Shown one piece after another: positions 1,426 through 34,311 of a DNA stretch of 44,993 nucleotides. Positions within the stretch are counted from its first letter, which is position 1; every line of letters starts with the position of its first letter. The notes beneath the pieces were generated by a model. It was not told the origin of the DNA, made no database searches, and saw nothing but the letters and a program-made list of their open reading frames with translations. Both the position numbers and the translations under genes were made by a program. The DNA comes from Burkholderiales bacterium. Its GTDB lineage: Bacteria; Pseudomonadota; Gammaproteobacteria; Burkholderiales; SG8-41. Where the stretch lies: assembly GCA_022843705.1 (NCBI GenBank), contig JALHND010000012.1, forward strand, positions 1-44,993, read 5' to 3'.

Positions 1426-2706
1426 TCAGCGTACGACCGGCAGTTCATCCCAGCGTGTCGTGTAACGCGGTGAGCGGCGTGCCGACTGCATGCGCCAGGG
1501 CTGTTCGATGCCGGCGCCGGCGAAGCTGGCGGTGTTCATGCCCCAGGTGCTGTTGATGCAGTCCAGCGTGGCCATCAACCGCGTGGAGCGCTGCCGCTCG
1601 TAGCCGGCGAAGAGATCGCCCTGCGGTGCTGCCGCCGGCCGCAGTCCGCCGAGGCAGACGCCGGCCTTCTTGTAGCGGAGTCCCGGCCGGTGGATCAGGG
1701 CAAGGCCGTGCATTGCGGCAGCGATCAGCCGGCGCGTATCGTCGCTCGCCACCGTCAGCGGGACTTCGACCGACCGGCGGTAACGGTCGCCATCACCATG
1801 GCCGCCGCGGTACTTGCCGGTATCGACATACACGCTGATCCGGCTGCAGATGCAATGCTGCGCGCGCATTCGCTCGGCTGCACGAATGACGTAGCTCGAA
1901 ACCGCTTCGCGCAGTTCCGCCATTGCGGTGACCGGGCGGCCAAAGCTGCGGGTGGCGATGACCTGGCCTTCGCGCAAGGCACTTTCTTCAAGGCCGATGC
2001 AGGGCACGCCATTGAGCTCGGCGACGGTACGTTCGATGATCACGCTGTGGCGCCTGCGCATCAACTTTGGCGGTGCGCGTTTCAGGTCCAAGGCGCTGTG
2101 CAGACCCATCGCAGCCAGCTCCGGCGCCAGGCGGCGGCCTACACCCCAGACTTCGCCGATGTCGATGCTGTCCATCACCGAATCCGCCTGCGCCGGCGGC
2201 AGTGCGTCCCAGTCGAACACGCCCCTGCATTCGCGCCGGCTCTTGGCGACATGGTTGGCGAGCTTGGCCAGCGTTTTTGACGCGCCGAAGCCGACGCAGG
2301 CGGGCAGACCCAGGAAGCGCAGGATGCGGTCGCGGATGGCGGGGCCCAGCTTGCTGCTGTCGATGACGACACCGCTGAAATCGAGAAAACATTCGTCGAT
2401 GGAATAGACCTCGCGCCGGGGGGCGAACTCGCCGAGCAATTCCATCATGCGCGCGCTGATGTCGCCGTACAGCGCGTAATTGGAGCTGAGCCAGACGAGG
2501 CCGCGGCTGCCGACCAGCGCGCGCACCTCGAAGAAGGGCACGCCCATGCGCACGCCCAGCGCCTTGGCTTCCTCGCTGCGGGATACCACACAGCCGTCGT
2601 TGTTGGAGAGCACGACGACCGGCCTGCCTTCGAGGCGCGGGTCGAACACACGCTCGCAGGAAACGTAGAAATTGTTGGCATCGACCAGTGCGATTCGTGA
2701 TGACAT
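1426..2706 (-). CDS. umuC: DNA polymerase V catalytic subunit UmuC (Y-family polymerase)
   Basis: [51 protein letters not shown]... [12 protein letters not shown]; directly downstream of umuD. Confidence 0.96.
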
Positions 2707-2709
2707 TGG

Positions 2710-3144
2710 TCAGGGCGCGTGCACGACGTAGGCGACGACGCCCCAGATTTCCAGCGTTTGGTCCCCGCGGACGACGATCTCGGGATAGGCCGGATTTTCG
2801 GGGTGCAGTACGATGTGATCACGGCTGCGCCGCAGGCGTTTCACCGTCAGCTCGCCGTCGATGGCGGCCACCACCACCCGGCCTGACACGGCTTCAAGCG
2901 AACGGTCGACGATCAGCAGGTCGCCGTCGTGAATGCCGGCGCCGGTCATCGAATCACCCTTGACGCGCATGAAAAAGCTGGCCTGAGGATGCAGCACGAG
3001 GTGTTCGTTCAGGTCGAGCGGGCGGTCGAGGTGGTCGGCGGCCGGCGAGGGGAAGCCGGCCGTGACGCGCCCCGCACACAGGGGCGGCAGCAGGCGTGGC
3101 GGCGCAGGGACAGGTTCGGCGGTGCGGGGGGTCGCGGGTTTCAT
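2710..3144 (-). CDS. umuD: UmuD-like LexA/S24-family autopeptidase
   Basis: FMRVKGDSMTGAGIHDGDLLIVDRSLEAVSGRVVVAAIDGELTVKRL: Ser/Lys S24 peptidase motifs; paired with umuC. Confidence 0.94.
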   Translation of the reverse strand: MKPATPRTAEPVPAPPRLLPPLCAGRVTAGFPSPAADHLDRPLDLNEHLVLHPQASFFMRVKGDSMTGAGIHDGDLLIVDRSLEAVSGRVVVAAIDGELTVKRLRRSRDHIVLHPENPAYPEIVVRGDQTLEIWGVVAYVVHAP

Positions 3145-24283: not shown

Positions 24284-24478
24284 ATGCTGACCCGTGAACA
24301 GACACTCGCCCTTGCACGCATCGCTGATCTCGACATTCCCGATGAGGACCTCGACAATGTCACGCTGCGACTGTCGGCGCTGCTCGAATCCATGGGCGAA
24401 ATTGAGGCCGAACTGGGCGCCGAGATGGATGCCGTCGAGCCCTTGCCGCCGGTGTTTCCGCGCGAGGACTTTGACTGA
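24284..24478 (+). CDS. GatC/AtzG-like small partner subunit of the upstream amidase
   Basis: 64-aa MLTREQTLALARIADLDIPDEDLDNVTLRLSALLESMGEIEAELGAEMDAVEPLPPVFPREDFD, 12 nt after the amidase, RBS AAGGAG. Confidence 0.72.
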   Translation: MLTREQTLALARIADLDIPDEDLDNVTLRLSALLESMGEIEAELGAEMDAVEPLPPVFPREDFD

Positions 24479-24563
24479 GCACTGCGTCACCGGTGTGGCA
24501 GGAAACTTGCTTTATCCATCAGGCCCGGCACTGCCGGCCCCGAAACATGAACTGGAGAATGTC

Positions 24564-25547
24564 ATGATCCATGCGTTGCAGAAATACCTCATATCCGTCC
24601 CGGCCATTGCGCTCGGCGCAGCCGTGCTGCCGGTTTCGGCCCAGCAGGCGGCGGATTACCCCAACCGCCCGATCCGCCTCGTTGTCTCCGCGGCCCCCGG
24701 CGGCAGCAGCGACGGGGCTGCACGGGTCATCGCGCAGCGCCTGAACGAGCTGTGGAAACAGCAGATTGTCGTCGACAACCGCGGCGGTGCCGGGGGCGTG
24801 ATCGGCGCCGGCCTGGTTGCAAAATCCGAACCCGACGGCTACACCATCGGCATTGTCTCGCTGCGTTTTTCGGTCAATCCGAGCCTGCTGAAAATGCCCT
24901 TCGATCCGCTCAAGGATTTCGAATTCCTGACCATGAACGGGGCCGTCGGCAATGTGCTGGTGGTCAACGTCAAATCGCCGCTGACCTCGGTCAAGGAACT
25001 GATCGCGCTGGCGAAGGAAAAACCGGGCCAGCTCACCTTCGCCTCATCAGGCATCGGCGGCGCCCCGCACCTTGCTGGTGAATTCTTTGCCCAACAAACG
25101 GGCATCAAGCTGACCCATATCGCCTACAAGGGCGGCGGGCCGGCCGTGGCCGACCTGCTGGGCAACAACGTGAGCATGAGTTTTGCGTCGATGACTTCGG
25201 CGCTGCCGCACATCAAGGGCAACCGGCTGCGTGCCCTTGCCGTGGGTGCCAAGGCCAGGTCCGCCCAGTTGCCCGAGGTACCGACCATGAAGGAGGCCGG
25301 CGCGGGCGACCTCTATGTGCTCGACTGGCAGGGCATGCTGGCCCCGTCCGGCATTTCGAAACCGGTTGCAGCCAAACTGTCGACGACCATTCGCGGCGTG
25401 CTCAAGGAACCGGAAACCACCCGGCGCTTCGAAGCCATGGGTCTCGACGTCATGGCGACATCCGGCGAGGAGTTCCGCCAGCTGGTGGCCAGCGACATCA
25501 AGCGCTGGGCCAGGGTGGTGAAGGAAGCCAACATCAAGGCCGACTGA
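24564..25547 (+). CDS. Bug/TctC family substrate-binding protein
   Basis: YPNRPIRLVVSAAPGGSSDGAARVIAQRLNELWKQQIVVDNRGGAGGVIGAGLVAKSEPDGYTIG; ATG 24564 with signal peptide. Confidence 0.92.
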   Translation: MIHALQKYLISVPAIALGAAVLPVSAQQAADYPNRPIRLVVSAAPGGSSDGAARVIAQRLNELWKQQIVVDNRGGAGGVIGAGLVAKSEPDGYTIGIVSLRFSVNPSLLKMPFDPLKDFEFLTMNGAVGNVLVVNVKSPLTSVKELIALAKEKPGQLTFASSGIGGAPHLAGEFFAQQTGIKLTHIAYKGGGPAVADLLGNNVSMSFASMTSALPHIKGNRLRALAVGAKARSAQLPEVPTMKEAGAGDLYVLDWQGMLAPSGISKPVAAKLSTTIRGVLKEPETTRRFEAMGLDVMATSGEEFRQLVASDIKRWARVVKEANIKAD

Positions 25548-26634: not shown

Positions 26635-27603
26635 TCAGAGGGTCACTGCGTCGCCGGTGCGGATCGAAGTGATGATCGCTTCGAAGGAAGCGATGGTGTC
26701 GATCATTTCGGTGGTGGTGATCGGGTAGCGCGCAACACCACCCGCGGCATCGGCAAAAGCATCAATCTCCGCCAGTACGGAGTCAATCTTCGGGAAATCC
26801 CTGACCTCGGTCTTGCCGCCCCTGAGGCGGATGATGGTGCGCGTCTCGTCCAGCGCTTCCACCGAGCCTTCGTCGCCGAAAACGTGAACGCGGAAGTACA
26901 GCGGCGAGGCGCGGACTGCGCCGAGAAAACCGCTGATACCGTTCCTGAAGCGGAACATTGCGGATACGGTATCCCGCGGATCGGCGCCTTCGCGATGCGA
27001 CATGAACTGCGCGGTGATTTTTTCCGCGGGCCCGGCGACATTCGCGAAAGCGTCGAGGATGTGTATGCCGGTGCCGGTCATGCCTGCCCCCGGGGTTTCG
27101 GCCGGCAGGTCGCGCCAGGGCGCGAAGAACTTGCTCGAGTGTTCGTTCGAGTAATGTCCCTCGACATGCATGATGCGGCCCAGCGCGCCGCTGGCGACGA
27201 CGCGGCGCAGTTCCGTGCACGACGGCCAGAAACGCTTGTTCTGGCCGACACCCAGCGGCACGCCGGCTTTTTTGCAGGCGGCCACCGCGCGTTCGGCGTC
27301 CGCCCGCGTCAGCGACAGCGGTTTTTCGCAGAACACCGCCTTGCCGGCGGCGGCGACCTGCATCACCTGGCTGCAATGCAGGGAATGCGGCGTCGCGAGC
27401 ACGACAGCCTGCACTTCGGCATCGGCCAGCGCTTCGTCGAGCGTGGCGGACAGACGGAAGCCTTTTGATTTGGCGTAGTCGCGCGTCGCATCCAGTTCCT
27501 GGGTGACGCCGTGCACGAAGCGCAGCTTTTGACTCTTGCCCTGCACCGCATCGGTGATGCTCTTGCCCCACCAGCCGAGTCCGACAATTGCAGCATCGAT
27601 CAT
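26635..27603 (-). CDS. Gfo/Idh/MocA family oxidoreductase
   Basis: MIDAAIVGLGWWGKSITDAVQGKSQKLRFVHG...VFCEKPLSLTRADAERAV; similar at the N-terminus to the 4228..5325 product. Confidence 0.91.
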   Translation of the reverse strand: MIDAAIVGLGWWGKSITDAVQGKSQKLRFVHGVTQELDATRDYAKSKGFRLSATLDEALADAEVQAVVLATPHSLHCSQVMQVAAAGKAVFCEKPLSLTRADAERAVAACKKAGVPLGVGQNKRFWPSCTELRRVVASGALGRIMHVEGHYSNEHSSKFFAPWRDLPAETPGAGMTGTGIHILDAFANVAGPAEKITAQFMSHREGADPRDTVSAMFRFRNGISGFLGAVRASPLYFRVHVFGDEGSVEALDETRTIIRLRGGKTEVRDFPKIDSVLAEIDAFADAAGGVARYPITTTEMIDTIASFEAIITSIRTGDAVTL

Positions 27604-27631
27604 AAAATTATCAATAAAATCAAATAGTTAG

Positions 27632-28264
27632 TTATTTCCGCTGACAAATGCGGCAGGCGTAATCCTCAAGCGTGGCGCGGGTCACGCCCACCGCACCGTG
27701 CTGGCGGCGGTTGTATTCCTCGCTTTCCAGTTCGGTGCGGAAAGAATCATTGAGGCGGTTGATCATGTTGAACATGCCGGTGATCAGTGAAATCTCGACG
27801 ATTTCGGCGTCACTGAAATGCCGCTTCAGTTCATCCCACACCGCGTTGTCGCGTTTGGCGGTGTTCAGCGTCATCGCTTCCGCCCAGGCGATCACCGCCT
27901 TTTCGCGCTCCGTGAACAAGGGGCTGCTGCGGTAGCCGTCACCCTGCAGCGCCTCGAACTCCTCGTCTTTCAGTCCCAGTGCTTGACCAAGCACGTAATT
28001 GTGTTCCGTTCAGTACTTGCAGCCGTTCAATGTCGAGGTCTTCAGCACGGCCAGGTTGCGCAGGCGCACTTCCGATACCGCACCGGCGTTGGGCTGGCGC
28101 ACGGCGGCAATGAAGGGCAGTGTCCAGCGCGCCAGGTACGGACTGTGTGCCAGGATGCGCATCAGGTTGGCGGTGCGGCCGAGCATTTTGTTGGAAGCCT
28201 CAAAGAGCTCTTTTGCCGGACCGGTGGCCTCGTCGTCGGTGATGCCGCGGATGCGCTGGGTCAT
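27632..28264 (-). CDS. Carboxymuconolactone decarboxylase (CMD/AhpD-like) family protein, candidate selenoprotein with in-frame TGA (CxxU)
   Basis: ORF-track pieces 28010..28264 and 27632..27994 are in the same frame, separated by TGA (28010-28012) and a few sense codons: ...RNLAVLKTSTLNGCKY-[TGA]-TEHNYVLGQALGLKDEEFEAL...; RBS AAGGAG before ATG 28264; homology pattern continues through the TGA. Confidence 0.8.
27979..27994 (-). promoter_or_regulatory. Candidate bacterial SECIS hairpin
   Basis: On the minus strand TGA-N15-GTGCTT-GGTC-AAGCAC: perfect 6-bp stem, GGUC loop, loop starts 21 nt after the TGA. Confidence 0.68.
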
Positions 28265-28278
28265 GCTGTCTCCTTGGT

Positions 28279-28794
28279 TCAGGGATTGTCGATCGCCGCC
28301 ATCGCCGCGTAGCGGCCGCGGAAATAGCCGAGTGCATCACGTTCCGCGTAGCTGTATTTCAGCACCTGGCCGATGAAAATGACATGGTCGCCGGCATAGT
28401 GCCGCGCCTCGGTGCGGCATTCGAACTGCGCCGCCGAGCCGTCGAGCAGGGGCATGCCGTGCGCGCCGAAGCCGTGGGCGACGCCCTCGAATTTTTTCGG
28501 AACCGGTTTCGAAAAACGCTGCGACAGCGCGATCTGGTCGCGCGCCAGCACATTGATCGCGAAATGCGTGGCCTGCAGGAAATTCGGCAGGTTGGGCGAG
28601 CGCAGGGACAGGCTCCACAGCACCAGCGGCGGCGACAGCGACACCGAGCTGAAGGAGTTGGCGGTCAGCCCGATCGGTTCGCCTTCGGCGGTCCGGGTGG
28701 TGACGATGGTGACGCCGGTGGCAAACGCGCCCAGCGCGTTGCGAAAATCGCGCGGATCGAAATCCGGGCCGGCCGGAGCAGTGGTTTCAGGCAT
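28279..28794 (-). CDS. Flavin reductase family protein (monooxygenase reductase component)
   Basis: FRNALGAFATGVTIVTTRTAEGEPIGLTANSFSSVSLSPPLVLWSLSLRSPNLPNFLQATHFAINVLA: typical flavin reductase-like FMN-binding domain. Confidence 0.93.
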   Translation of the reverse strand: MPETTAPAGPDFDPRDFRNALGAFATGVTIVTTRTAEGEPIGLTANSFSSVSLSPPLVLWSLSLRSPNLPNFLQATHFAINVLARDQIALSQRFSKPVPKKFEGVAHGFGAHGMPLLDGSAAQFECRTEARHYAGDHVIFIGQVLKYSYAERDALGYFRGRYAAMAAIDNP

Positions 28795-28797
28795 GGC

Positions 28798-29982
28798 TTA
28801 CAGCGTCGGCAGGTCGGCGGCGATGCCCAGCAGCGACTTGCCGGCCATCGTGGTCGCGATGTCCCAGGCCAGCGCGTAATGGCTGTTGGCCGCGTGGATG
28901 TCGCGGAACGAGCGCTGGATGGCCTGCTGGTTGTAGAGGAACTCGCCGCCGCCGGCGCCGAACAGCAGGTCGACGGCTTCGGTGCAGAGGTGCGCGGCAT
29001 AGGCGCCGTCGCGGCGCAGGCGGATTTTCTGCTCCCGCGTGGGCACCGCCTTGCCTGCGGCAATTTCCATCGCTTCCCGGCAGTTGCCGGTCAGGATGCG
29101 TTCAGCCCCGGCCACTGCTGCTGCTGCATGTCCCAGGCGCGCCTGGGTGGTCGCATAATCGGCGAGCAGCGTTGTCGAATAGGCGGTGATGCGGTGGCGG
29201 ATGTCCTCGCTGAACACCTCCAGCGCGCCCTGTGCAATGCCCAGGGCTGCGCCGGCCACCACGTACGGAAACATGTCGAATACCGCAAGCTGGTAGAGCG
29301 GGGCTGTTTCGCCACCGGCGCCGACGCCCCCCTTCATGCGGTTGACGGACAGGGCACGATGGGCCGGGATGAAGATGTCGGACACTTCGACATCCTTGCT
29401 GCCGGTACCGCGCAGCCCGGCGACATGCCAGGTATCAATGATGTTGTAGTCGGCCTTCGGCACCAGGAACACGTAGTACTCGGGCAGTTCGCCCTCGGCG
29501 CTGTGGACGATGCCGCCGAGCATGCACCAGTCGCAGGCATCAATGCCGCTGGAAAATTTCCAGCGGCCGGAGAGCCGGAAACCATGGCCGTCGCGTCCGG
29601 CGTGGCCTGCGGGAAACATCAGTGCAGAACCGACGAGGGCGTCAGCCGACGGCCTCCAGATCTCGTCCTGCGCGTCGCGCGGCCACAGCGCCAGCATCCA
29701 GTGGTGGTTGGCCAGATTGGCCAGCACCCAGGCGGTGGAGCCGCAGCCGCGGCCGATGATCGCGGTGAGTTCGACGATTGACTCGTAGGACAATTCGCTG
29801 CCGCCGACACGTTTCGGCTGCAGCATGCGGAACAGGCCGCTGGCATGCAGATCGCCCAGCGTGTCATCCGGTATGCGCCGCAGCTCCTCGGCGCGGGGTG
29901 CGCGTTCGCGCAGTACCGGCACCAGCGCCCGCGCCCGGGCGACAAGGTCGGCGTGTCCGGGCTGCGTGGCGGGCGTGGTCAT
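28798..29982 (-). CDS. Acyl-CoA dehydrogenase-fold flavin-dependent monooxygenase, oxygenase component (HsaA/HpaH-like)
   Basis: RIPDDTLGDLHASGLFRMLQPKRVGGSELSYESIVELTAIIGRGCGSTAWVLANLANHHWMLALWP...LSGRWKFSSGIDACDW; adjacent to a flavin reductase. Confidence 0.85.
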   Translation of the reverse strand: MTTPATQPGHADLVARARALVPVLRERAPRAEELRRIPDDTLGDLHASGLFRMLQPKRVGGSELSYESIVELTAIIGRGCGSTAWVLANLANHHWMLALWPRDAQDEIWRPSADALVGSALMFPAGHAGRDGHGFRLSGRWKFSSGIDACDWCMLGGIVHSAEGELPEYYVFLVPKADYNIIDTWHVAGLRGTGSKDVEVSDIFIPAHRALSVNRMKGGVGAGGETAPLYQLAVFDMFPYVVAGAALGIAQGALEVFSEDIRHRITAYSTTLLADYATTQARLGHAAAAVAGAERILTGNCREAMEIAAGKAVPTREQKIRLRRDGAYAAHLCTEAVDLLFGAGGGEFLYNQQAIQRSFRDIHAANSHYALAWDIATTMAGKSLLGIAADLPTL

Positions 29983-29998
29983 TGCCTTGCGGGCCCGC

Positions 29999-30997
29999 TC
30001 AGGACTCGACGTTGACGATCTGGCCGCTGGAAGCCGATTTGAAGATGGCTTCCAGCGCCGAGATGTTGGCGATCATCTGCGATTGCGGCACCGGGTAGGG
30101 CGCGCGGCCTTCAGCGGCATCGGCAAAGGCTTCGAGGTTGGCCAGCACATTCGGCGCCGGCGGGTATTCGCGGGTTTCCCGTTCGCGGTCACGGACCACC
30201 TTGGTGAAGGTCCAGCCGGTCGGTTTTTCGGGATGGGTCTTGTCTCGCACCTCGACCCAGCCCTTGCTGCCGTAAACGGCGAAGCGGCCTTCGAAGGGCG
30301 TGGCGAGGATGGCGCTGATCAGCGCATGGCCACCGTTTTTGAACGAGGCCAGGATCGCCAGCGTGTCGCCGTTGACCAGCTGGCTGCCCAGCTGCTTGAC
30401 GCTGGCGAACACGCGCTCGGCTTCACCGAAAACGCCCACCGAGAGGTCGAGCAGGTGGATGCCGGTCGCGGTCATCGGGCCGGCCGGCGCCTCCTTGCCG
30501 GAGAGCCGCCAGTTGGCGGGATCGAGCGTCAGGAACTTGTCCTGGCTGAAATTGGCTTCGACCTGCAGCGGCACGCCGATTTCGCCGGATTTGACGACCT
30601 TCATCAGGTCGATGATCGGCGGCTCGAAGCGCCGCTCGTGGCCGACCGCGAGGGCGACCTTGTTGTCATTGACGGCCTTGATCGCGCGCAGCACGTCGGC
30701 ACGGGTCATCGACAGCGGTTTTTCGCAGAACACGTGTTTGCCGGCATTGGACACCGCGATGATCTGCTGGGTGTGCTGGGTATGCGGCGTGCACAGCACG
30801 ACGCCCTGGATGGACGGATCCTTCAGCACTTCGTCGAGGCTGGTGACGACCTTGACGCCATGCTGTTTTGCAAAATCGGCAATGCCCGCGGCATTGATTT
30901 CGACAACGGTGCTGACGCTGATTTTTTTGCTGGTCTTGAGCAGCGGGACGATGATCTTGCCCCACCAGCCCATGCCGACCACGGCGACGTTGAACAA
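29999..30997 (-). CDS. Gfo/Idh/MocA family oxidoreductase (TTG start)
   Basis: LFNVAVVGMGWWGKIIVPLLKTSKKISVSTVVEIN...VFCEKPLSMTRADVLRA; AAGGAG 7 nt before TTG 30997; longer ORF to 31060 would overlap the upstream gene. Confidence 0.9.
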   Translation of the reverse strand: MFNVAVVGMGWWGKIIVPLLKTSKKISVSTVVEINAAGIADFAKQHGVKVVTSLDEVLKDPSIQGVVLCTPHTQHTQQIIAVSNAGKHVFCEKPLSMTRADVLRAIKAVNDNKVALAVGHERRFEPPIIDLMKVVKSGEIGVPLQVEANFSQDKFLTLDPANWRLSGKEAPAGPMTATGIHLLDLSVGVFGEAERVFASVKQLGSQLVNGDTLAILASFKNGGHALISAILATPFEGRFAVYGSKGWVEVRDKTHPEKPTGWTFTKVVRDRERETREYPPAPNVLANLEAFADAAEGRAPYPVPQSQMIANISALEAIFKSASSGQIVNVES

Positions 30998-31025
30998 CGT
31001 GTTTCTCCTTGCTGTTGCGGTGTGT

Positions 31026-32132
31026 TCAGGCGGCCTTGCCGCCCCGGGCGATGGCGGCATTGACTGCCGGCATCACTTTTTCTGCCAGCAGCTCCATCGA
31101 GCGTTTGCCGAGTTTCGGATCCATCCAGTCATGGCAGGCATAGACCAGCGTGCCGAAATCGCCGACTTTCTCGCGGAAGGCGAGGATCTGGTCAACCACG
31201 CTGTTGACCGTGCCGGCAAGCACCAGCTGGTCAGTCACGTATTCCGGGGTGATTGCCGAGTCCGGCATGTTCTGGTCGACCTTGAACAGGTTGCCGCGGT
31301 TGCCGAAGCCGACCAGCTTGCGCACCAGCTGCTTGAAATAGAAATGGTAGGGGCCTTCGGCCGATTTGCCGTAACGCTGCGCGGTGGCCTCGTCGTCGGC
31401 GACAAAAATGCTCTTGGCGATGCGCCAGTCGGCCGGGTCGGCAACCTGTCCGATGTTCTTTTTGCCCTCGGCATAATTGGGCCAGTGGGTCTTAACCCAT
31501 TCCGGCATCAGGAAGTTGGCCGAAATCGGCAGCCAGCCGCGTTCGGCCATTGCAGTGACACCCTTGGAGTAGGGGGCCACCACGGTGCCGACGATCGGCG
31601 GATGCGGCTTCTGGAAGGGCTTGAGGATGATGCCCTGGCCGATCTCCGGAATCATCGTCTTCTCGGTGCTGATTTTCCAGAACTTGCCTTCCAGGTTGTA
31701 CGGCGGCTCGGACTCCCAGATCTTCAGCACCATGTTGATGCCCTCGACGAACATCGCGTTGCGGTCGTTGCCGAGATTGCCGAAGACCTCGGCATCCGAC
31801 ATCAGGCCGCCGGGGCTGATGCCCATCATGAAGCGGCCCTCAAGCATGTTGTCGAGCATCGCCACCTGGGCGGCAATGGCGGCCGGGTGGGAGTTCGGCA
31901 CGTTGATGGTGCCGGTGCCGAGTTTGATGCGTTTGGTCTCGGAAATCAGCGACGCGAGGAAGGTCATGCAGTGCGTCACCGTTTCCGCGGCGTCGGTGAC
32001 ATGTTCGCCGACATAGGCTTCCTCGAAGCCCAGCCGGTCGGCCAGGATGATGGCTTCGCGGTCTTCGCGCAGCGATTGCGGATAGCTCTTCCCCGGGGGG
32101 TGGAGCGGCATCATGAAGGTGGCGAGTTTCAT
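31026..32132 (-). CDS. LLM class (luciferase-like) flavin-dependent oxidoreductase
   Basis: MKLATFMMPLHPPGKSYPQSLREDREAIILADRLGFEEAYVGEHVTD...GTGTINVPNSHPAAIAAQVAMLDNMLEGRFMMGISPGG. Confidence 0.93.
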   Translation of the reverse strand: MKLATFMMPLHPPGKSYPQSLREDREAIILADRLGFEEAYVGEHVTDAAETVTHCMTFLASLISETKRIKLGTGTINVPNSHPAAIAAQVAMLDNMLEGRFMMGISPGGLMSDAEVFGNLGNDRNAMFVEGINMVLKIWESEPPYNLEGKFWKISTEKTMIPEIGQGIILKPFQKPHPPIVGTVVAPYSKGVTAMAERGWLPISANFLMPEWVKTHWPNYAEGKKNIGQVADPADWRIAKSIFVADDEATAQRYGKSAEGPYHFYFKQLVRKLVGFGNRGNLFKVDQNMPDSAITPEYVTDQLVLAGTVNSVVDQILAFREKVGDFGTLVYACHDWMDPKLGKRSMELLAEKVMPAVNAAIARGGKAA

Positions 32133-32182
32133 CCGTGCTTTCCTGGCTGGTTGGTAGGTTCAGTGAGCTGTGAGCTGAAGCA

Positions 32183-33163
32183 TCATTCCGTCTGGATATT
32201 GTTGTCGCGGATTGCCTTGGCGAAGCGGTCGGTTTCGCTTTTCACGAAGGTGCGGAAATCCGCCGGATCCTTGCTGATGATCGCGGCGACGCCACTGTCG
32301 CCGAGCTTCTTCAGGACATCCGGATTTTTCATCGACGCCTGTCCGGCCTTGAACAGCGTGTTCACGACATTGGCCGGCGTGCCCTTCGGCACAAACAATC
32401 CCTGCCAGGAACCCACCACCATGTCAAAGCCCTGTTCGCGCATCGTCGGCGCCTCGGGCATCGCCTGGCTGCGCTCCGGCGCAATGATGCCCAGCATGCG
32501 CAGCCGGCCCTGTTTCGCGAAATTGACGGTTGAACTGAAAGTCGCCATCAACCACTGCACCTCGTTGCCCAGCAAACCGATCGTGGCCGGGCCGGCACCG
32601 CCCTTGTAGGGAATCATCGTTGCCTTGGTGCCCGACATGTTGAGGAACATCAGCGCCTCCAGCGTGTTCGCGCTGCTGGGCGCGGCGGCACCGAAATTGA
32701 GTTTGCCGGGATTGGCCTTCATGTGAGCGACGAGTTCCTTGACGGTTTTCGCCGGTACCGAGGGGTGGGAAACCAGGCTGCCCGGCACGTCGACCACCTG
32801 GGTGATCGGAATCAGATCGACCAGCGGCTTGAACTGGAACTTGGTGTAATAGACCGGATTGATCGCCATCGTGCCGACGTTGCCGAGCAGGATGTTGTAG
32901 CCATCGGGGGTCGCACGAGCAGCGGTTTCAACGCCGATGTTGCCGGAGGCACCCGGGCGGTTGTCGACCACTATGGTCTGCTTCAATTGTTCCGCCAGCG
33001 CCGGCTGGATGATGCGGCCGACGAGGTCGGATGCGCCGCCCGGCGCGAAGGGCACGATCATGCGGATCGGGCGGCTGGGATAGGTTTCCGCGCTGAGTGC
33101 GGGGCCGCAGACCATCGTCGACAGGGCGATGGCGAGGGTGATGCGTTTCAGCCTGAACATCAT
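32183..33163 (-). CDS. Bug/TctC family substrate-binding protein
   Basis: YPSRPIRMIVPFAPGGASDLVGRIIQPALAEQLKQTIVVDNRPGASGNIGVETAARATPDGYNILLGNVG. Confidence 0.93.
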   Translation of the reverse strand: MMFRLKRITLAIALSTMVCGPALSAETYPSRPIRMIVPFAPGGASDLVGRIIQPALAEQLKQTIVVDNRPGASGNIGVETAARATPDGYNILLGNVGTMAINPVYYTKFQFKPLVDLIPITQVVDVPGSLVSHPSVPAKTVKELVAHMKANPGKLNFGAAAPSSANTLEALMFLNMSGTKATMIPYKGGAGPATIGLLGNEVQWLMATFSSTVNFAKQGRLRMLGIIAPERSQAMPEAPTMREQGFDMVVGSWQGLFVPKGTPANVVNTLFKAGQASMKNPDVLKKLGDSGVAAIISKDPADFRTFVKSETDRFAKAIRDNNIQTE

Positions 33164-33201
33164 GATTACTCTCTCCTTTGATATGTAACTATATGATTTT
33201 A

Positions 33202-34311
33202 TTATACTTTTTCATCACCGGGCGCGATGGGCAAGGACACCGGCCGCTTCAGCTTCGCCGACAGGTCGATGGCCTTGGTCAGCATCAGCCGATTATGGCC
33301 TTCCGCTGCAGTGGCATGCTGCGTCGGAACGCCCAGTGATACCCGATTCAACCACGAATTGGTTTCCTCGCGCATCGGTCCGCGCAATTCGCCCAGCGCC
33401 ATGTCGCCGACCGGGTAGCTGGTCAGGAAGTCGACGTGACGGCGCTTGTCCGGCGCATAACCCTCGCTCTGGATCAGGTTGGTGGCGAGCACGATGTCGC
33501 GATGGGTGTCATCGATGGTCAGCACGCCTTCAGTGCCCACTGCGCCGACTTCAAGGCTGTAGACCGCGCCCGGCCAGACCTCGGGCAGCGCCCAGGAAAT
33601 CACCCCGTGATAAATCGCGCCATCATCGAAGCTGATGGTATAACCGGTGCCGTCCACGCCCTGCCAGGTGGGTCCCAGCGCCTTGTTGACCGATCGCGCA
33701 TAGACCTCGACCGGTTTCTTCGACTCCATCAGCCACATCACCACGTCCAGTGCGTGCGTTCCCGAAATCACCATCGGCGTCACTTCGGCGCGGTTGTCGC
33801 TGCGCTTGTAGTTGTCGATCGCGACCAGGCGGTTCATGAAGGCACGCGAGGTGACCATCGTCACTTCGCCCAGCGAACCGGTGCGCACCTTTTCCTTGGC
33901 CACCAGCCAGCGGCGGCGGAAGCGCTGGGTGTAGCCGATCACCGCATCGACGCCGTGTTTCTCGATCGCGGCCAGCGTCTGTGCCGATTCGCCCAGGTCG
34001 GTGGCCAGCGGCTTCTCGATCAGCATCGGCAGCTTGCGTTCGGCCGCCATCAGCACCGGATCGACATGCAGGTGCTCGTCAGTGCATACCGCCACCGCAT
34101 TGACCTCGGGACGGGCCAGCAGCTCGCGGAAATCGGTGGTGACGAAGTCGCCGCCGCATTTCTCGCGCACGATCTCGCCGCGCTCGGGATTGATTTCGGC
34201 AATGCCGATCCAGCCCACCGAGGGATGGCGGGCGGCGAGTTCGGCACGGATCAGGCCGACGCGGCCGGCACCGATGATGGCAAGTCCGATTTTCTTGGGG
34301 TTCTTTTTCAT
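33202..34311 (-). CDS. Gfo/Idh/MocA family oxidoreductase
   Basis: IGLAIIGAGRVGLIRAELAARHPSVGWIGIAEINPERGE...MLIEKPLATDLGE. Confidence 0.92.
   Translation of the reverse strand: MKKNPKKIGLAIIGAGRVGLIRAELAARHPSVGWIGIAEINPERGEIVREKCGGDFVTTDFRELLARPEVNAVAVCTDEHLHVDPVLMAAERKLPMLIEKPLATDLGESAQTLAAIEKHGVDAVIGYTQRFRRRWLVAKEKVRTGSLGEVTMVTSRAFMNRLVAIDNYKRSDNRAEVTPMVISGTHALDVVMWLMESKKPVEVYARSVNKALGPTWQGVDGTGYTISFDDGAIYHGVISWALPEVWPGAVYSLEVGAVGTEGVLTIDDTHRDIVLATNLIQSEGYAPDKRRHVDFLTSYPVGDMALGELRGPMREETNSWLNRVSLGVPTQHATAAEGHNRLMLTKAIDLSAKLKRPVSLPIAPGDEKV

Follow-up and report, generated by a model that had tools for sequence, protein, structure and literature searches.

AhpD-like and CMD-like selenoproteins, in which selenocysteine (Sec) is the second residue of a CxxU motif, are an established kind of protein (PMC1088965, PMC2398784, PMC9312934, PMC13188914), the CxxU type having been on record since 2005; the initial annotation of the locus described here had also noted that CMD/AhpD-like selenoproteins are described. 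Since the kind is already established, the present gene adds a well-supported Sec subfamily to the AhpD/CMD-like selenoproteins rather than a new kind; a literature search, the four papers just cited included, found no paper that names or describes this subfamily. With the AhpD-like selenoproteins (COG2128/YciW; TIGR01926) the protein of this locus (the query) shares the AhpD fold, Sec as the second residue of CxxU, a SECIS element just downstream and the existence of Cys homologs. It differs from them in its score against the TIGR01926 peroxidase-related enzyme model, 66.3 bits against a cut-off of 81.8 (two other members score 63.0 and 66.7), and in having a second, C-terminal CxxC. The best NCBIfam match, NF053654 (GroundWater_YciW, 'YciW-related (seleno)protein'; residues 3-176), is related, but the query, with 72.9 bits where 310 are required, is not a member. 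The alkylhydroperoxidase-related (seleno)protein CFYUT (NF041238, Sargasso hypothetical protein 1) has a similar CxYU-T context as well as the CxxU, but the score here is 38.3 bits against 175, and of the 357 positions of the model the C-terminal part alone aligns. Similarly, the superfamily and the motif are held in common with the CMD domain-containing selenoproteins (PF02627, CxxU; PMC1088965), where the query reaches 20.4 bits against a gathering score of 23. The subfamily falls short of the cut-off of every NCBIfam model.

The locus lies within a stretch of 44,993 nucleotides from a Burkholderiales bacterium (the window), and its features are collected in Table 1. As the initial annotation had it, two minus-strand open reading frames, 28010..28264 (84 aa) and 27632..27994 (120 aa, from a GTG start), stand in a common frame and are interrupted by a single TGA; the residues quoted there are also correct. 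The 210-residue read-through has exactly one internal stop, in the context CKY[TGA]TEHN, such that the protein would read ...RNLAVLKTSTLNGCKYUTEHNYVLGQALGLKD... around it. A standard gene caller would split such a selenoprotein gene in two. On the sequence evidence set out below, however, what appears to be a broken gene is most likely one intact gene, the 'stop' of which codes for selenocysteine. A scan of the whole window for TGA flanked by coding-biased frames returned 8 places, among which no other CxxU context was seen by eye.

Table 1. Positions of the selenoprotein gene, its elements and its neighbours in the window
Feature	Position	Strand	Remarks
Selenoprotein gene, AhpD/CMD-like, CKYU motif (putative)	27632..28264	-	210 codons plus TAA; read-through translation
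In-frame TGA, residue 85, probably read as selenocysteine	28010..28012	-	TGA in all 72 ortholog sequences; L047 and L048 have TGC
Codons C82-K83-Y84, immediately 5' of the TGA (CxxU redox motif)	28013..28021	-	
His88, invariant, +3 from Sec	28001..28003	-	Alignment; HMMER alignment to PA0269
Putative bacterial SECIS hairpin, 5'-GUGCUU GGUC AAGCAC-3'	27979..27994	-	6-bp stem, GGUC tetraloop; pair conservation, paralog compensatory changes
C-terminal CRIC, second CxxC pair C204 + C207 (residues 204-207)	27644..27655	-	71/71 intact Sec proteins
Flavin reductase, HsaB/p-hydroxyphenylacetate hydroxylase reductase-like	28279..28794	-	Adjacent in close relatives only
HsaA-like flavin-dependent monooxygenase oxygenase, acyl-CoA dehydrogenase fold	28798..29982	-	Adjacent in close relatives only
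Gfo/Idh/MocA oxidoreductase, downstream	26635..27603	-	

In the alignment of homologs that the initial annotation had proposed, every ortholog has TGA at the critical column, and relatives at a greater distance have Cys. The orthologs, 34 in a first set and 38 further sequences, are 71-93% identical to the query; the resulting 72 sequences include the window's own copy, come from a scan of species genomes together with searches of the bacterium's own order and own family, and are not all independent, as some were taken from the same genome by two tools. Cys is found in two homologs of 58-60% identity, from metagenome-assembled genomes labelled Acidiferrobacteraceae (L047) and Rhodospirillales (L048); in a phylum-wide sample of 399 genomes, the search for further Cys homologs matched nothing besides the window's own gene. 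Decay downstream of the TGA, for which the initial annotation had advised looking, is not what the orthologs show, in that purifying selection there equals that upstream (median dN/dS of 0.141 before the TGA and 0.143 after it in 34 orthologs) and 71 of the 72 sequences are open to the normal end. A disabling mutation or a base-call error in an ordinary CxxC protein might be suspected in a draft genome of 247 contigs, the more so as one relative, L140, does have an extra TAG, but the same TGA would then have had to recur through many assemblies in sequences that otherwise stay open and constrained, and the codon selection inside the hairpin (see below) would serve no purpose in a pseudogene; this explanation is scarcely credible. 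Separately, two of the sequences may be decaying or misassembled copies, these being L140, where the TAG is premature, and L050 (4001-4441), from which residues about 93-154 are apparently missing in frame.

The subfamily is found mainly in one Burkholderiales family. In the bacterium's own family, 46 of 74 genomes give a match at E <= 1e-30, a few of them by way of a paralog only, while a sample of 300 genomes of the order holds a full-length ortholog in 8. Seven of these 8 are among the 87 selA genomes listed for that sample; the eighth, G144, stands outside the selA list and is only 84% complete.

Beyond the TGA itself, the sequence that follows it has the character of a bacterial SECIS element, in keeping with the initial annotation, which had placed a putative SECIS here and recommended a search for it. 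The hairpin begins 15 nt past the UGA and its loop begins 21 nt past it. The published bSECIS constraints comprise a loop of 3-9 nt on a stem of 4-16 bp, G at the first two positions of that loop, a spacing of 16-37 nt and a minimum free energy of <= -7.5 kcal/mol (PMC13188914 Fig. 2A). The hairpin lies within all four, with its 4-nt GGUC loop, its 6-bp stem, its 21 nt and the -7.6 kcal/mol of the folded stretch, the last of them barely. Set against dinucleotide shuffles, the folding energy of this single gene's hairpin is ordinary (z -0.18 to -1.25), and a few orthologs have a competing fold of greater stability than the hairpin. As the single-sequence energy is weak, the case for a SECIS element rests on synonymous-site conservation, on the recoding null and on covariation in paralogs.

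In this regard, the base pairs of the stem are retained in 72 of 72 ortholog sequences, with a change from A-U to G-U in two of them as the sole substitution. The codons GTG CTT GGT CAA GCA CTG stand out as frozen in a comparison of 99 columns whose amino acid is invariant and degenerate: the mean codon entropy is 0.26 bits for the six hairpin codons and the next one, and 1.00 for the other columns (p = 0.0004). Several of the frozen codons are minority choices in the window (CTT 5%, GGT 13%, CAA 9% and GCA 14% of their codon families). No such freeze is seen in the Cys homologs, whose codons at these positions are different. When the peptide is recoded at random with synonymous codons at local codon usage, a stem of this length with a GU tetraloop arises in 0.17% of cases. 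GGUC is also the apex loop of the SECIS hairpin of Escherichia coli fdhF, which otherwise has another stem sequence and an apex closer to the UGA by about 3 nt; the stretch concerned was located at fdhF in an E. coli collection.

The GTG from which the second open reading frame starts lies inside this putative SECIS, as had been pointed out, and is the codon with which the stem of the hairpin opens. It is invariant, 15 nt past the TGA, and could be taken as the start of a 120-aa protein following an 84-aa N-terminal piece, with the TGA as a true stop. Such a division would, however, fall within the active-site motif; conservation at the protein level extends over the codons from TGA to GTG (with T86 and H88 invariant), the GTG also belongs to the stem that is frozen, and each of the Cys homologs is a single continuous protein. 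Two separate proteins are thus very improbable, and this reading was rejected, as was that of a pseudogene or base error, on conservation, dN/dS and the codon freeze.

Covariation is seen in the wider set of CMD-like genes. Two groups of TGA-bearing paralogs, 36-43% identical to the query, each have their own hairpin. That of group 2 is UCGCCU GGUC GGGCGA (GGUU in some) and lies 4 nt closer to the UGA, while that of group 3 is GCGCUU GGUC AAGCG, with compensatory changes from U-A to C-G in 5 of 7 sequences and from U-A to A-U in L123. The sequences carrying a UCGCCU-GGUC-GGGCGA hairpin are L116-L122, L124, L126, L131, L132 and L085, at 37-43% identity; this group occurs in 11 genomes of the family and has the context ECQY[TGA]IKHN, as read in L085. 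The bacterium's own genome contains a second CMD-like frame (L081, G000:C1:1800-3900) with a TGA at the same column, HGCHY[TGA]MAHNAGG, and the pattern HGCxY[TGA]MAH recurs in relatives from several genera (L069, L071, L074, L075, L077, L086, L087). Elsewhere, a TGA-bearing CMD gene adjoins a CMD frame free of internal stops (G342:C6 91266-92489, and similarly G307:C136, G306:C123 and G344:C126), and these may be tandem pairs of Sec and non-Sec genes.

The host genome (3.4 Mb in 247 contigs, 91.9% complete) contains all of selA, selB, selC (tRNA-Sec) and selD, the genes for which the initial annotation had suggested a search. SelA (581 bits, cut-off 268) and SelB (436 bits, cut-off 242) adjoin each other on contig C110, SelD (422 bits, cut-off 125) is on C13, and the tRNA-Sec, with anticodon tca, is on C198 (75.9 bits, cut-off 47). 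The selD gene (L019, G000:C13:11859-12788) has an in-frame TGA of its own, HGGG[TGA]GCK, at the usual Sec site of SelD. Read-through with a standard amino acid, whether at a leaky stop or by reassignment of TGA, has in its favour that the inserted residue is not identifiable from sequence alone; it is nevertheless highly unlikely in view of the full Sec machinery, the Cys in the aligned column and the hairpin that fits the published SECIS model, and also because 16 of the 34 orthologs listed end this very gene with TGA as its ordinary stop codon. The overall picture, from the SECIS-type hairpin, the TGA/Cys column, the Sec genes and the selection downstream, supports the original proposal of a CxxU protein of about 210 aa: Sec is almost certainly encoded at codon 85 by the UGA together with the downstream hairpin. 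A survey of 2006 found FdhA to be the only selenoprotein in Sec-decoding Betaproteobacteria (PMC1794560); among the genes of this Burkholderiales family are several of CMD-like type with a TGA, and its SelD is of the Sec type.

As to the protein itself, profile searches match Atu0492 (2GMY), PA0269 of Pseudomonas aeruginosa (2IJC, 2O4D), the AhpD of D. radiodurans (6K40) and the debrominase Bmp8 (6OHI), with E down to 2e-15, and an AlphaFold model (mean pLDDT 65, pTM 0.61; moderate confidence) returns the same structures in Foldseek, with a best E of 2e-6. Profiles and model both place the protein in the AhpD-like superfamily (CMD clan), with its all-helical fold and CxxC/CxxU active-site helix pair. 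The term 'CMD/AhpD-like' in the initial annotation holds for the fold and the superfamily and less well in detail, the Pfam CMD score being below threshold and part of the AhpD active site being replaced. In AhpD a proton relay is made up of five residues, Glu, Cys, His/Tyr, Cys and His, which in PA0269 are Glu36-Cys48-Tyr50-Cys51-His55 (PMC3141380). The two-helix active-site motif is shared with PA0269 and with Mycobacterium tuberculosis AhpD, their CxxC being aligned to CKYU, and PA0269 also has the Tyr between the active-site residues; C82, Y84, residue 85, T86 and H88 are all invariant in the alignment. Compared with these proteins, however, the relay Glu is replaced by Asn70 and the second Cys by Sec, and Asn89 occupies the +4 position of the relay His, the His of this protein being His88, at +3. 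This replacement of relay residues is a feature unforeseen by the initial annotation and, as two of the five residues are affected, AhpD-type peroxidase activity is not assured.

A second unforeseen feature is the C-terminal CxxC. It is present, mostly as YACRIC, in all 71 ortholog Sec proteins with an intact C-terminus and is absent from the Cys homologs L047 and L048 (YARRFA and YAAGFA) and from paralog group 2; the sequences of group 3 run partly out of frame in this region. It might tentatively be suggested that this pair relays electrons. Thioredoxin reductases have a mobile C-terminal redox pair, and the proposed CMD-fold enzyme would likewise serve its Sec from its own tail. By the same analogy, and with similar caution, CxxU and the CxxC tail could perhaps amount to a built-in relay in a distinct selenoenzyme subfamily of aromatic or organic-acid catabolism, one that dispenses with the proton relay canonical in AhpD. 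With Sec and Cys homologs that are matched, and with the C-terminal CxxC on the Sec side, what Sec contributes to an AhpD-fold enzyme can be tested directly.

A mechanism can be proposed in which the gene product would be an AhpD-fold thiol/selenol oxidoreductase. The complex of SelB, GTP and Sec-tRNA(Sec) would bind the GGUC hairpin 21 nt past the UGA and deliver Sec at codon 85, so that the motif of the active site would be C82-K-Y-U85. The Sec selenolate would then attack an oxidised or electrophilic substrate, such as a peroxide or a product of the surrounding catabolic operons; C82 would resolve the intermediate as a selenenylsulfide, after which C204/C207 might accept the oxidising equivalents and pass them to a cellular reductant. 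Reasoning from the AhpD family, redox chemistry at Sec85 and C82 is the probable function.

The genes around the locus bear on a different function, with Sec accepted. In the window, an HsaA-like oxygenase and its flavin reductase are followed by the Sec gene and then by a Gfo/Idh/MocA gene, an order that is the same in the close relatives L022-L030. With a flavin monooxygenase and reductase directly upstream, with the AhpD relay Glu and +4 His missing, and with a solved relative, Bmp8, that is a CMD-homolog debrominase/decarboxylase (PMC7918430), the protein could be imagined to act with the HsaA-like monooxygenase in aromatic dehalogenation or decarboxylation rather than in peroxide or thiol redox chemistry. 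Bmp8 does match in sequence and fold, at about 195 aa; it is, however, a Cys enzyme of tribromopyrrole synthesis, of about 21% identity in the structural alignment. Moreover, the monooxygenase/reductase pair is not adjacent to the Sec gene in L031-L050, where genes for PPDK-like proteins, 2-hydroxyacid dehydrogenase, TctC and CoA-transferase are found nearby instead, and we consider such a role unlikely, if not negligibly so. Gfo genes, too, are among the neighbours outside the close relatives. A fixed partnership with the HsaA-like monooxygenase as a rule for the whole family was rejected, since the neighbours change outside the close relatives.

Gene content suggests a setting of small-molecule catabolism, and as neighbours vary between lineages the substrate is not readable from context. 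Within a single 10-kb stretch of the window (24294-25547 on the plus strand and 26635-34311 on the minus strand), two genes encode TctC solute-binding proteins (24294, 32183) and another three encode Gfo/Idh/MocA oxidoreductases (26635, 29999, 33202). Elsewhere in the window, 1426-3144 (-) encodes a UmuC-like polymerase (IMS, DUF4113) after a Peptidase_S24 gene, the two forming an ordinary SOS pair of the umuDC type.
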